From NCBI RefSeq assembly GCF_013407595.1, contig NZ_JABEKX010000001.1, positions 328,522-392,521 on the forward strand: a DNA stretch of 64,000 bases, given 5' to 3'. This DNA comes from Lacticaseibacillus absianus (lineage in GTDB: Bacteria > Bacillota > Bacilli > Lactobacillales > Lactobacillaceae). The notes under the pieces were generated by a model, which made no database searches, had not been told where the DNA came from, and saw nothing but the letters and a program-made list of their open reading frames with translations. The position numbers and the translations under genes are program-made. Below, one piece after another: positions 21,973-44,943 of the stretch. Each line of letters starts with the position of its first letter. Position 1 is the first letter of the stretch.

Positions 21973-22947
21973 ATGGTCGGAATCATTCTTGCCAGTCACG
22001 GGCAATTCGCCGCTGGCATTAAGCAATCTGGTCAGATGATCTTCGGTGAGCAAGAAAAAGTCGAAGTTGTGACGTTCATGCCGAACGAAGGTCCAGATGA
22101 TCTGAAAGCACACCTTGAAGAAGCCATTGCAAAGTTCGATCCGGAAGACGACGTATTGTTCCTCGTGGACCTTTGGGGCGGCTCACCATTCAACCAGGCT
22201 AACGGGTTGTTTGAAGCGCACAAAGACAAGTGGGCGATCGTTACCGGGTTGAACCTGCCAATGTTGATCGAGGCTTACGGGTCTCGCCTTTCCATGACTT
22301 CCGCGCAAGAGATCGCGGCACACCTGGTCGAAGCCGGGCGTGACGGGGTGAAGATCAAGCCAGAAGCACTGGAACCTAAGCCAGCTACCGCGCCCGCCGC
22401 TGCACCTGCAGCATCTAATGGGGGCAAGCCTGGGAAGCTGGAATACGTGCTTGCACGTATCGATTCTCGCCTGCTGCACGGCCAGGTCGCAACGGCTTGG
22501 TCCAAAGACGTGAAGCCAACGCGGATCATCGTCGTATCTGACGATGTGGCTCGGGACAAGCTGCGTAAGCAACTGATCACCGACGCGGCACCAGGTGGTG
22601 TCAAGGCGCACGTTATCCCAGTTGATCAGATGATCAAGATCGCCCAAGACGATCAGCACTTCGGCGGTGAACGGGCCCTGCTCTTATTCGAGACACCACA
22701 GGACGCGCTGCGTGCCGTTGACGGTGGCGTGCCATTGAAGACGATCAACGTCGGTTCGATGGCCCACTCTGCCGGTAAAGTTCAGCCGAACAAGGTACTC
22801 GCGTTCGACCAAGACGATATCGACACCTTCGGCAAGCTGAAGGCTAAGGGGATCGACTTCGATGTCCGCAAGGTCCCAACGGACTCCAAGGACAGCATGG
22901 AAGGCATCCTCAAGAAGGCGCAAGACGCCCTCAACGCTGCGAAATAA
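21973..22947 (+). CDS. manX: PTS mannose-type EIIAB
   Basis: A 324-residue cytoplasmic phosphocarrier. The EIIA domain (residues 1-130) has its phospho-His in [10 protein letters not shown]. An Ala/Pro-rich linker ([12 protein letters not shown] near residue 140) leads to the EIIB domain with phospho-His in [11 protein letters not shown]. It passes phosphate from HPr to mannose, glucose or related sugars during uptake. Start ATG 21973 follows AGGAGG; an in-frame ATG at 21934 adds 13 residues before that ribosome site and is unlikely. Codons such as CCA for Pro and GAA for Glu differ from neighbouring genes, which fits very high expression. The gene is also called manL. Confidence 0.93.
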
Positions 22948-24853: not shown

Positions 24854-25279
24854 ATGGTTGAATCACTGAATACCAAAGTTGACATGGTCACGGAGGCGAC
24901 GAGCTTCCTCGGGATGCCGGCATACGGCAAGATCATGATCGGCGACAAAGGGTTCGAATTCTACAACAACACGAAGGCCAAGGATTACATTCAGATCCCG
25001 TGGATCGAAGTGGACCACGTGGATGTGTCGGTGGTGTTCGGCGGCAAGTGGATCCCGCGCTACGCGGTGGCCACCCGGCGCAACGGCGTGTACACGTTCG
25101 CGTCCAAGGACCCTAAGGCCGTGTTGCGGGCGGTTCGGGAGCACATCCCGGCCGATCGCATCCTGAAGTCGCTGAGCTTCTTTCAAGTCCTGCGCATGGG
25201 CGGACAGAACCTCTTCAAAAAAGAGACCTGGACGGGGATCGGGCAGCGCCTGACCAGCCGTCGCCGGCCCCGCAAGTGA
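24854..25279 (+). CDS. manO: DUF956 family protein ManO
   Basis: A 141-residue small cytoplasmic protein of the DUF956 family, which is found almost exclusively behind mannose-type PTS operons in Lactobacillales. Recognisable parts are VDMVTEATSFLGMPAYGKIM at the N-terminus and HVDVSVVFGGKWIPRY near residue 60. The function is unproven; a regulatory role on the PTS has been proposed from genomic context. It has its own -10 element and terminator. A GGGGG site precedes ATG 24854. Confidence 0.85.
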   Translation: MVESLNTKVDMVTEATSFLGMPAYGKIMIGDKGFEFYNNTKAKDYIQIPWIEVDHVDVSVVFGGKWIPRYAVATRRNGVYTFASKDPKAVLRAVREHIPADRILKSLSFFQVLRMGGQNLFKKETWTGIGQRLTSRRRPRK

Positions 25280-25298: not shown

Positions 25299-25326
25299 GC
25301 ACCGCGTGTTGCGCGGTGCTTTTTTG
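25299..25326 (+). terminator. Intrinsic terminator of manO
   Basis: GCACCGCG (25299-25306) pairs with CGCGGTGC (25312-25319), followed by six or more T. The dispersed repeat element begins three bases later. Confidence 0.88.
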
Positions 25327-25348
25327 TCCCAGAGCGACGCAAGGCCGC

Positions 25349-25442
25349 ACTTAGCGGGCCGGGTAGCCTGTCTACCGCATGTCAGCCCGTAACGCGCCAG
25401 CGCGAACGGTCTGATCAAGCTAAGCGCGTTGCGCCCGCACTT
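25349..25442 (+). repeat. 94-bp direct repeat, unit 1
   Basis: The segment from ACTTAGCGGGCC to CCCGCACTT is repeated at 25524-25617 with a single mismatch, at an offset of 175 bases. It contains a small GGTAG/CTACC hairpin. Confidence 0.95.
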
Positions 25443-25523
25443 AGGCGCGATGTGCTTATCGTCGCTAGACGCGCCCGCGTTGGCCTTGTGTCGCTCGACG
25501 ATGCCAGAGCGACGGACGCGCGG

Positions 25524-25617
25524 ACTTAGCGGGCCGGGTAGCCTGTCTACCGCATGTCAGCCCGTAACGCGCCAGCGCGAACGGTCTGATCAAGCTAAGC
25601 GCGTTGCGTCCGCACTT
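25524..25617 (+). repeat. 94-bp direct repeat, unit 2
   Basis: Second copy of the segment at 25349-25442, with one C to T difference near its end. The near identity implies recent duplication or ongoing gene conversion. Confidence 0.95.
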
Positions 25618-25845
25618 GGTGAGGCCCGATATCGTCAGCCCCCGAAGCATCACGTTCCCGCGCCCCCTTGCCTCAGGCCACCTGAGCCCTCCAAGCGCCA
25701 CAAGTGACAATACTGTTATTAGGCCATCGGCCCGTCAGCGTGGTATGCTGGGGCGTGTTTTGGTGGCACAGTCTCTTTGGGGGGCTTGCCGGCGCAAGAC
25801 GGTGGGCGGTGCAAGCGCCCGAGCATAAACCGGGAGGGACGGACA

Positions 25846-33619: not shown

Positions 33620-33689
33620 CAGGCGCCGGAAGGCAAAAGTATCGGGTTGTGACATAACCCCTGGTGGCACGACTATTCCAGAACGTTAC

Positions 33690-33799
33690 GTGCCATAACG
33701 CAACGCCCTAGCCGTATAAGAGAGACCCCCTGAAAAACCTAAGTTCGGGTTTTTCAGGGGGTCTCTCTTATACTCTGGGCTAAAACCGCGTTATGGCAC
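33690..33799. repeat. Nested inverted repeat with perfect 26-bp hairpin between convergent genes
   Basis: The outer arms GTGCCATAACGC (33690-33701) and GCGTTATGGCAC (33788-33799) are perfect 12-bp inverted repeats. Inside lie a shared TAGCC/GGCTA and a perfect 26-bp stem (33714-33739 with 33748-33773) around an eight-base loop. The structure separates the serine hydrolase gene from convergent argH. It is much longer than a usual terminator and resembles a MITE-like element; no target duplication is evident. Confidence 0.85.
33714..33773. terminator. Probable bidirectional terminator hairpin
   Basis: A perfect 26-bp stem in which the A5 and T5 tracts lie near the loop, rather than a T tract after the stem. 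Its position between convergent stop codons fits a terminator or RNA-stabilising 3' structure for both transcripts. Confidence 0.6.
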
Positions 33800-33815
33800 A
33801 GCCCCGTCCCGCAGA

Positions 33816-35198
33816 TCAGCGTGCGGCGAGGAGCGCTCGCGCCTGGCTGACCTCCTGGCGCACATTGGCGACTGCTGTGCCGCCGAGGCTGGTGCGACGG
33901 TTGACCGCGGCTTCAGACGAGAGCTCCGCGTAGACGTCTTGGTCGATCTCTGGTGCGGCGGCTTGCAGGTCAGCCAACGGCATGTCCTGCAGGCTCTGGC
34001 CGGTCTGAAGACCGTGGAGCACCAGTTCGCCGACGATCGCGTGCGCCTTGCGGAACGGCACACCCTTGGTGGCGAGGTAATCCGCCAGCTCCGTCGCATT
34101 GCTGAAGTCGCGGATCGTGGCGTCGTGCATGCGTTCCTCATGCACAGTCAGCGAGTCCAGCATGCCGGTGAAGATGTGGACCGAACCCAGGATCGTCGTG
34201 TAGGCGTCGAACACAGGCTCTTTATCCTCCTGCATGTCCTTGTTGTAAGCGAGTGGCAGGCTCTTCATCGTGGTCAGCAGGCCCATCAGCGCGCCGTACA
34301 CACGCCCGGTCTTGCCGCGCGTCAGCTCGGCGAAGTCCGCGTTTTTCTTCTGCGGCATGATCGAGGAGCCGGTCGAGAAGGCGTCGGACATCTCGATGTA
34401 GTTGAACTCGTAGGTGCACCAGAGGATCAGCTCCTCGGCGAGGCGCGAGAGGTGCTGCATCAAGATCGCAGCGTTGCTCAGGAACTCGAGGGCAAAATCG
34501 CGGTCGGACACGGCGTCCAGCGAATTGTGGTACACCGCGCTGAAGCCTAGCTGCGCGGCGACGAACTCACGGTCGATCGGGAAGGTGGTGCCGGCCAAGG
34601 CGGCGGCGCCCAACGGCAAGATGTCCGTGTGCTGCTGATTGAAGGCGAAGCGCTCGTAGTCGCGCTGGAACATCTCGAAGTAGGCGAGCAGGTAGTGGCC
34701 GTAGGTGATCGGCTGCGCGTGCTGCAGGTGGGTGTAGCCTGGCATGATGGTGTCGGCGTGCTGATCGGCCTGGGCCACCAGCACGCTTTGGAGGTCAGAC
34801 AGCGCCTGCATCAGCTCCGGCAGGCGGTGCCGCAGCCAGAGGTGAAAATCCGTGGCGACCTGGTCGTTGCGCGAGCGGGCGGTGTGGAGCTTGCCGGCGA
34901 CGGGCCCGATCAGATCGGTCAAGAGGCGTTCCATGTTCAGGTGGATGTCCTCATTGGCGACGGTGAAGGTCAGCTCACCGGCTGCGAGCTGCTGTTGCAG
35001 CTGGTGCAGGCCGGCCGTGATCGTGTCGGCGTCGGCTTGCGGGATGATGCCCTGCTGGCCCAGCATCGCGACATGGGCGAGGGAGCCTTCGAGGTCCTCT
35101 TGGGCCATCTGTTGGTCGAAGCCGATCGAGGCGCCGAACTGATCGACCCACTTCGCGGCTTTGGCGGTGAAGCGACCGCCCCAGAGTTTGTCCGTCAT
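33816..35198 (-). CDS. argH: Argininosuccinate lyase
   Basis: A 460-residue cytoplasmic enzyme that splits argininosuccinate to arginine and fumarate, the last step of arginine synthesis. The fumarase/aspartase superfamily signature [12 protein letters not shown] near residue 280 carries the catalytic Ser; [13 protein letters not shown] near residue 106 and [10 protein letters not shown] are also typical. The N-terminus [10 protein letters not shown] is the family start. Its start codon shares the base at 35198 with the argG stop. Confidence 0.96.
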
Positions 35199-43855: not shown

Positions 43856-44671
43856 ATGACTGAAGATTTTGGCATGCGTGTCTCGGTACTGGCATCCAGC
43901 AGTTCCGGGAACGCGACGTACATCGAAACGCCGGGGCACAAGGTGCTCGTCGACGCCGGGTTCTCGGGCAAAAAAATGACCGAGCTGATGGCGAGTATCG
44001 GTCGGGACCTGAAGGATGTGGACAGCCTGTTCATCACCCACGAGCACACCGACCACTGTAAAGGCGTCGGCGTGCTGGCGCGGCGGTACCCCAACCTGAC
44101 CGTCTACGCGGATCAGGGGACCTTTGACGCGCTGCCGAGCGGCCTGGGCCAGTTGCCACAAGACCGCTTGCAGGTCTTCGACACCGGGACCACGATGAGC
44201 CTCGGGGACCTCGATGTCGAGAGCTTCGGCGTCTCGCACGACGCTGCGGCACCGCAGTTCTACCAGTTTCACCACGCCGGCAAGCGCTTCGCGATCCTGA
44301 CCGACACGGGCTACGTGTCCGATCGCGTCGAAGGGACCATCCGCGACGCGGACGCCTACGTGATGGAGTGCAACCACGACCTGGAGATGCTGCGCATGGG
44401 CCCGTACCCGTGGCCGCTGAAGCAGCGGATCCTGGGCGACTTCGGCCACTTGAGCAACGAAGACGGGGCCAACGCGATCATGGACATCATCGGGCTCCAC
44501 ACCAAGCGGGTGTACCTTGGCCACCTGTCGCCGCACAACAACGTCAAGGCACTGGCGCACATCACCGTCGCCAACATGCTCAAGGCGCAAGGGTTGGGCG
44601 TCGGCCATGACTTCGAGATCTTCGACACGGATCCGGCCATCGCCGACCCGCTGTTCACCGTCGGCGCGTGA
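43856..44671 (+). CDS. walJ: WalJ (YycJ), metallo-beta-lactamase-fold hydrolase
   Basis: A 271-residue cytoplasmic MBL-fold protein. SSSSGNATYI at the N-terminus, the metal motif THEHTDHCKG near residue 62 and later ligands in TDTGYVSD and LGHLSPHNN are all present. Relatives act as nucleases, and YycJ is linked with DNA maintenance and wall homeostasis. It is the fifth gene of the wal operon. AAGGAAGAG precedes ATG 43856. A strong terminator follows. Confidence 0.92.
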   Translation: MTEDFGMRVSVLASSSSGNATYIETPGHKVLVDAGFSGKKMTELMASIGRDLKDVDSLFITHEHTDHCKGVGVLARRYPNLTVYADQGTFDALPSGLGQLPQDRLQVFDTGTTMSLGDLDVESFGVSHDAAAPQFYQFHHAGKRFAILTDTGYVSDRVEGTIRDADAYVMECNHDLEMLRMGPYPWPLKQRILGDFGHLSNEDGANAIMDIIGLHTKRVYLGHLSPHNNVKALAHITVANMLKAQGLGVGHDFEIFDTDPAIADPLFTVGA

Positions 44672-44679
44672 GCCATCAG

Positions 44680-44723
44680 AACGGAACGGGGACAACCGTC
44701 AGAGTTGTCCCCGTTCCGTTTTT
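44680..44723 (+). terminator. Intrinsic terminator after walJ
   Basis: A 17-bp stem (AACGGAACGGGGACAAC with GTTGTCCCCGTTCCGTT) with a six-base loop and a terminal T run. The dispersed repeat begins five bases later. Confidence 0.92.
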
Positions 44724-44727
44724 GGTT

Positions 44728-44943
44728 CCAGAGCGCAGGACTCGCGGGTTTAGCGGGACGGGTAGCATCGCTCAGTGCGTTGAGTCCGCACTTAGGCGCA
44801 ACGTGCTGAGCGTAGCTAGACGCGCCCGCGTTGTGGGGCCGTAGCTCGACGAGCCAGAGCGCAGGGCCCACGGGCTTAGCGGGACGGCTCGGTCAGACCG
44901 GGCCACCCCGGCGGGACGGTCCGACCGTGCAGGCTCGATATCG
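44728..44943. repeat. Composite dispersed intergenic repeat, copy 2
   Basis: Two CCAGAGCG boxes (44728, 44854) are each followed exactly 22 bases later by TTAGCGGG (44750, 44876). CGCACTTAGGCGC (44787) is followed 28 bases later by the 19-base box at 44815-44833 that is identical in copy 1. The element closes with CGATATCG (44936). As in copy 1 it begins right after a terminator on the same strand. The 94-bp duplication of copy 1 is absent; the intervening sequences differ. The rest of the gap up to htrA (44944-45122) carries only the htrA leader, without a clear promoter. Confidence 0.85.

Follow-up and report, generated by a model that had tools for sequence, protein, structure and literature searches.

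A repeat whose copies can form, on one particular strand, a single hairpin of about 118–129 nt was found in Lacticaseibacillus absianus and in other Lactobacillales. Each unit amounts to one long imperfect hairpin, in which several helix blocks alternate with conserved internal loops, and this structure is kept by compensatory change. The 5′ end of the repeat shows a preference for the stop codon of the upstream gene on the same strand, and in other cases it is located just past the T run of a terminator. Related species differ in the presence and the tandem number of the element at one and the same site, as was observed between infA and rpmJ, between walI and walJ, and behind a terminator. 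Its function and its mover we infer: it is probably a dispersed, non-autonomous structured repeat of the REP/ERIC kind, which, where transcribed, would place a hairpin against the terminating ribosome.

Copies in the window and anatomy of the unit

An earlier note on the window, i.e., the whole stretch of 64,000 nt that was analyzed, had described two copies of an intergenic repeat with boxes at fixed spacing. The letters were re-checked. The box pair CCAGAGCG-N14-TTAGCGGG is present at 25329, 25504, 44728, and 44854, with a start-to-start distance of 22 each time, and CGCACTTAGGCGC at 25436 and 44787 is both times followed, 28 bases on, by an identical 19-mer. A search of the 2.84-Mb genome for further copies yielded 43 places with at most two mismatches versus four for the reversed control pattern, which confirms the observation and excludes a chance origin. 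The motif CGATATCG, noted near the ends of both copies, is indeed located there (25627 and 44936), and it occurs a third time in the window at 22815. As an end box of the family it was rejected, because it is found within 250 nt downstream of only 2 of the 30 arrays of the own genome, namely the two noted ones.

The repeat is real, but each of the two copies turned out to consist of a full unit and a truncated tandem unit. The first array is preceded by an intrinsic terminator on the plus strand (25300–25325; stem CACCGCG/CGCGGTG and T6), behind a gene that ends at 25279 and that we take to be DUF956-like. Full unit 1 (25329–25501, plus strand, 173 nt; covariance model R2, 52.6 bits, E 1.3e-11) has kept the outer helices and the loops and contains about 47 additional bases within the long apical helix. 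The truncated second unit (25504–25617, plus strand) matches the initial 114 nt of unit 1 with 95% identity. The second array follows an intrinsic terminator that was read from the sequence (44681–44723, plus strand) behind a presumably WalJ-like gene (43856–44671). Full unit 2 (44728–44852, plus strand, 125 nt; R2 107.8 bits, E 2.6e-26) represents the standard form of the window, whereas only the start of the degenerate second tandem unit is recognizable (44854–44887, plus strand, 34 nt, 88%). The distances from the T tracts to the arrays were measured to be 3 and 4 bases, in agreement with the 2–5 bases noted before. A divergent third copy of 118 nt on the minus strand had been overlooked (33685–33802; R2 54.0 bits, E 5.6e-12). 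It begins 13 nt past the stop codon of the minus-strand gene 33816–35198. Folded singly, this unit reached −81.7 kcal/mol (z −13.8 versus shuffles), and the unit at 44728 reached −62.0 kcal/mol (z −3.2; 1 of 200 shuffles was as low).

In the own genome, a unit extends over 124–126 nt from CCAGAGCG to GCTCGACGA, and units are often arranged head to tail with about 1–3 nt between them. Longer variants of 134–182 nt carry additional sequence inside. In unit 2, the 5′ side of a conserved internal loop region is GTAGCATCGC (44762–44771, plus strand; common form TAGCCTAGC), which faces GCGTAGCTA on the 3′ side. The identical 19-base box (44815–44833, plus strand) contains, in addition to the 3′ strand of the third helix block, the bases that follow this block. 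The apical loop is often ACTT. The tail is GACGA or GTTTA and not a long T run, and therefore, by inspection, a role of the unit itself as a terminator is not favored.

Conservation of the hairpin by compensatory changes

For a first alignment, 28 units were cut out of the own genome, and 20 of these, with lengths of 123–127 nt, were aligned with MAFFT. RNAalifold predicted a single long hairpin with 41 pairs. Of the cells at these pairs, 96.6% can pair, and double changes were present in 25 of the 41 pairs. None of five measures was reached by any of 500 shuffles, and shifting the partner by 1–3 columns abolished the covariation signal. Covariance model R1, built from own-genome units, located the family in other genomes. 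Opposite-strand matches of this model merely echo the palindrome, and two alignments that contained echo rows (A4 and A5) were replaced by alignment A6, which is made up of 28 units that come from 21 loci in 20 genomes and is the basis of model R2. The MAFFT rows of a further alignment (A3) were set aside. In A6, 94.9% of the cells were paired, double changes occurred in 40 of 41 pairs, and the score was 0.866 versus 0.225 after shuffling; in a third alignment of 129 distinct rows, the respective values were 93.1%, 41 of 41, and 0.892 versus 0.206. In both cases, 0 of 500 shuffles scored as high, and both alignments, unlike the first, were fitted to the model and are thus biased in its favor. 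As to terminal inverted repeats like those of MITEs, pairing at the ends of the unit in A6 begins after 3 unpaired bases and extends over 4 bp.

The earlier interpretation, in which the repeat was not the remnant of a gene but a structured RNA or a binding element, is partly supported by these results. The structure is strongly supported, but the reasoning behind it has to be reversed in one point. What had been regarded as variable filler between fixed boxes is in fact base-paired, covarying helices, whereas the boxes of fixed sequence correspond to the ends and the internal loops of the hairpin.

The strand was analyzed by comparing the numbers of G-U/U-G and A-C/C-A cells at pairs whose commonest form is Watson-Crick. 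The ratios of G-U to A-C were 28 to 5 (own units), 59 to 8 (A6), and 225 to 43 (third alignment). For a duplex or a symmetric cruciform, similar numbers would be predicted, and therefore, it is apparently this strand that is constrained, either as RNA or as single-stranded DNA, both of which are compatible with the G-U excess.

Position relative to stop codons and terminators

Genes were called with a purpose-written codon-based caller, and none of the 77 listed element sites overlaps a called gene by more than 30 nt. The placement was quantified for 154 arrays, i.e., 30 of the own genome, 43 in 14 stretches of genome G068, and 81 in 73 loci of other genomes. Ten of 102 matches (nine partial, one echo) and one echo of 134 were excluded, and the G068 loci among the 134 matches were replaced by other stretches of that genome. 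A same-strand ORF of at least 100 codons ended between −12 and +10 nt from the first base of the element in 68 of the 154 arrays (7 own, 21 G068, 40 other), counts that are not independent events because the copies are related, and that stem from loci that mostly are the best-scoring ones of each search. One stop-abutting array was counted twice due to the overlap of two loci (L121, L141), and without the two repeats the value is 67 of 152. As a control, an opposite-strand stop codon was equally near to the 3′ end of the element in 3 of 154 arrays (1, 1, and 1). With the wider limits of −12 to +15 nt, the number of arrays with a same-strand stop rose to 70 of 154. Among the arrays of other genomes, a distance of −2 was the most frequent (15 of 47), where the T of the stop codon comes from the gene and AG or AA from the element. 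Simulated uniform placement in the same gaps predicted 2.1 stop-abutting arrays for G068, versus 21 of 28 seen, and 2.5 for the own genome, versus 8 of 25 seen, the eighth being infA, which is below the limit of 100 codons.

The claim that the repeat is always located behind a terminator does not hold across the own genome and the relatives. A T5 run within 15 nt upstream precedes 8 of the 30 own arrays, 7 abut a stop codon, and 15 do neither by these simple rules. The T5 context, to which both plus-strand arrays of the window belong, was also found for 3 of 43 arrays in G068 and 6 of 81 in other genomes, and outside of the own genome it is the reading-frame end itself that was most often recognized as the context. 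For 69 of the 154 arrays (15 of 30 own, 19 of 43 in G068, and 35 of 81 other), neither of the two contexts was recognized by the simple rules used; by eye, some of these lie before the ribosome site of a divergent gene, behind a repeat remnant, or behind weaker terminators. In a separate set of loci around walJ homologs, 7 of 41 arrays abut a stop codon and 5 follow a T5 run. The orientation was clearly that of the upstream gene in the own genome (25 of 31, p 0.0009) and weakly so in G068 (28 of 43, p 0.066). The strand was shared with the downstream gene in 22 of 32 and 23 of 44 cases, respectively. A terminator scan that is too crude to build on gave a terminator within 250 nt downstream of 20 of 68 stop-abutting and 13 of 86 other arrays, and within 60 nt upstream of 0 of 68 and 13 of 86, respectively.

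Ten proteins encoded before stop-abutting elements were compared with profiles. The end of the profile was reached for IF-1 (64/64), QueA (322/322), the C-terminal domain of GyrB (63/63), a biotin carrier (73/73), and a hydrolase (255/255), and it was nearly reached for YbaB (90/91), AckA (391/392), and RmlD (284/287). The match of a peptide deformylase extended to position 146 of 156, and an MgtC domain was too distant from the end to be informative. The upstream genes are of many kinds, and they include the core genes infA, gyrB, queA, and ybaB, where elements are located within a few bases of the stop codon.

Occurrence and turnover in related genomes

The scans gave lower bounds, namely 26 of 301 genomes and 7 of 40 genera for the family (model R1), 38 of 395 genomes and 14 of 80 genera for the order (R2; seven genomes belong to two other families), 3 of 398 genomes for the class (R2; two in one further family), and 1 of 398 genomes, that of the window, for the phylum (R2). 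They are lower bounds because the R2 scan of the own genome (37 matches) lacks the copy at 33685, which was found by direct search, and because one genome (G894) with a single match in the scan has four units in its locus L116. In 12 bearing genomes that were searched individually, the number of model matches ranged from 1 to 92. With WalJ as the query, the nearest named relative was Lacticaseibacillus daqingensis (93%). The WalJ-query loci contained 64 R2 matches, including one weak opposite-strand echo, in 16 of 44 loci, of which 14 belong to Lacticaseibacillus and one each to Liquorilactobacillus mali and Limosilactobacillus balticus. One query unit (from G243) had relatives with 92.7–94.2% identity on six plasmids of Ligilactobacillus salivarius, i.e., in another genus; the other three of the four units used in the plasmid search had no match, nor did the one unit used in a phage search.

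The impression of the earlier note that the family is not a recognized one was borne out by Rfam. For the window, Rfam 15 at the gathering threshold gave a sole match, a lysine riboswitch elsewhere (RF00168, 18852–19023, minus strand, 70.6 bits), and permissive scans of six and eight element loci gave only matches below gathering scores. In the titles and abstract openings of open-licence papers, no description of this repeat family was found.

The infA-rpmJ gap could be compared in 29 of 30 genomes of the genus. It has 23–27 nt in 14 genomes and 48–87 nt in 13. In the own genome and in G263, which are the only two of the 29 loci with an R2 match, it has 140 and 144 nt and contains a full element between the stop codon and the ribosome site. 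Several of the gaps of 48–87 nt harbor, as judged by eye, short hairpins with the end letters of the element; at four loci (L272, L273, L279, L281) these lack the inner part and are possibly collapsed remnants. The names walI and walJ are putative, and the genes were read by position. In 10 of 18 listed loci, the walI-walJ gap has 12–115 nt. In two sister species it has 309 and 357 nt and contains a facing pair of elements, one of which starts at the stop codon, and three loci with gaps of 188–287 nt are without an R2 match. At three loci (L175, L176, L179) the script had picked another ORF. In L. zeae, an element is located directly past a terminator, whereas L. chiayiensis is without it at this site (junction by eye); the walJ-htrA gap of L. 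chiayiensis contains additional sequence that is 75–77% like the element and below the R2 limit. Tandem numbers also vary between sister species (5 versus 2, 4 versus 1, and 2 versus 1). At the sites compared, no target duplication, as would be typical of a MITE, was seen by eye.

Similarity to known repeats

ERICs are imperfect palindromes of about 127 bp with internal insertions that occupy intergenic regions of enterobacteria, and we know of no mover for them. By description, they resemble the present repeat in size, imperfect palindromy, internal insertions, and intergenic location, although they belong to another phylum. The polarity toward stop codons was seen in the present repeat. The EFAR/Efa elements of Enterococcus faecalis are modular mobile repeats of about 170 bp that insert in stem-loops. 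By description, they form an L-shaped fold of two hairpins, in contrast to the single hairpin found here. ERIC, NEMIS, and Efa are mentioned as transcribed hairpins in PMC1590033, where preliminary data are given according to which Efa RNA elements may enhance stability. The repeats bcr1-bcr18 of Bacillus cereus are intergenic, some have a conserved RNA structure, and 84 of 165 and 62 of 155 copies in two strains were found in mRNA (PMC3446304). A paper cited there calls bcr1 specific for the B. cereus group in its title. The likeness to these families, some of them structured, is one of description.

REPs and BIMEs are likewise intergenic, palindromic, and often close to stop codons. In E. 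coli, 260 of 496 REPs were within 15 nt of a stop codon in an earlier study cited in PMC12306157, and 446 of 4,072 in PMC12306157 itself, where ribosome stalling and effects on mRNA are cited for stop-proximal REP hairpins. The 70 of 154 arrays at −12 to +15 nt resemble the former of these values, though not the latter. Many REPs bear a GTAG or CGTC tag (PMC3733652), and there are REPs with a RAYT partner (PMC2817692). REPs have 20–40 bp, whereas the present unit has about 118–129 nt, several internal loops, another 5′ end, and 41 pairs in the model, and it does not conform to the short, tagged REP palindrome. The repeat is not a REP, because size and tag differ, and by analogy it may nevertheless work like REP or ERIC. 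A RAYT partner was considered and is not supported by the search with PF01797, which has matches in 5 of 11 bearing genomes and none in the other 6. No mover was found.

Possible origin and function

In the reading that we favor, a mover acting in trans on the single-stranded or cruciform form would set the element beside the ends of reading frames or transcripts. An element ahead of a terminator or within an operon would be transcribed. Inside operons such as infA-rpmJ, it would be expected in the message, with its first helix a few bases past the stop codon, as a strong hairpin that the terminating ribosome and 3′ exonucleases would encounter. Therefore, we propose, by analogy to REP, that translation of the preceding gene would be lowered or tuned and that the stability of the message would be changed. 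Both plus-strand arrays of the window are preceded by a terminator, so that they would depend on read-through for transcription, and there the element may be no more than tolerated cargo.

A purely selfish DNA element without an RNA role is possible, though we regard it as rather unlikely. The hairpin would be the substrate of an IS200/IS605-like single-strand or cruciform transposase, and the positions would reflect target choice and tolerance only. A constraint on a single strand would be equally expected, and the absence of target duplications by eye at the compared sites, the transfer on plasmids of another genus, and the variable presence and tandem number would fit as well. However, the Y1 transposase (PF01797) has no match in the 6 of 11 searched genomes mentioned above, including G068 with its 92 hits, G418, and G464. 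In the five genomes with matches, RAYT was not told from IS200, and in the own genome the match covers positions 13–68 of 121 only. Moreover, no sequence target common to all genera was evident by eye; TAG or TAA ahead of the element is frequent in G068. Such transposases are not known to show polarity toward stop codons of translated genes, which also argues against this explanation.

The polarity and the junction inside the stop codon could also be explained by a mobile structured RNA that copies itself into the ends of translated frames, a bacterial SINE-like retro-element with a mover in trans, which we consider improbable. It would choose its target on the mRNA at the terminating ribosome, or alternatively free RNA 3′ ends such as terminator T tracts would be targeted, and a return to DNA would follow. 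A double-stranded site for a chromosomal protein (gyrase or HU-like), as has been proposed for BIMEs, with uptake of supercoiling at gene ends, would agree with the location at the ends of genes and transcripts and with the head-to-tail arrays, but compensatory change with a one-strand G-U excess would be unexpected and a fixed short distance to the stop codon unnecessary, making it very unlikely. That the units are genes of small RNAs, or switches acting in cis, each with a specific ligand or target, as the conserved internal loops and the frequent ACTT apical loop might suggest, is hardly credible, as the upstream genes are of many kinds and a cis-regulatory switch would not be expected to occur in tandem copies or to differ in position between sister species.

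On the favored reading of a transcribed REP/ERIC-like hairpin, a family of repeats in lactic acid bacteria that covaries along the entire hairpin, has no Rfam match, and reaches tens of copies in some genomes makes it possible to test how bacterial palindromic repeats reach gene ends, and whether translation is tuned by stop-proximal hairpins in bacteria other than enterobacteria.

Additional observations

At two loci from two genomes of genus g38 (L076, L077; flanks of 1501–1623), the unit lies within a longer shared stretch, and by eye the flanks look mutually complementary. In G068 (L242-L255), many units have a common 3′ extension like CAC-AAA-TTAGTCAGG, in which, by eye, a small hairpin is possible and which lies outside of the model. 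A second non-coding repeat of about 450 nt was noticed at L230:2560-3011 (G000:C4:132359-132810) and at eight more places of the own genome. Its nine copies have 79–100% identity to the query; the repeat contains a terminator-like hairpin and, as judged by eye, a possible promoter. It was found in 1 of 30 genomes of the genus, the own one, and it had no Rfam match at gathering scores or in a permissive scan. The z value of its fold is −4.0, and it could be a new large RNA or a mobile element. Hairpin units are located directly 3′ of eight of its copies.
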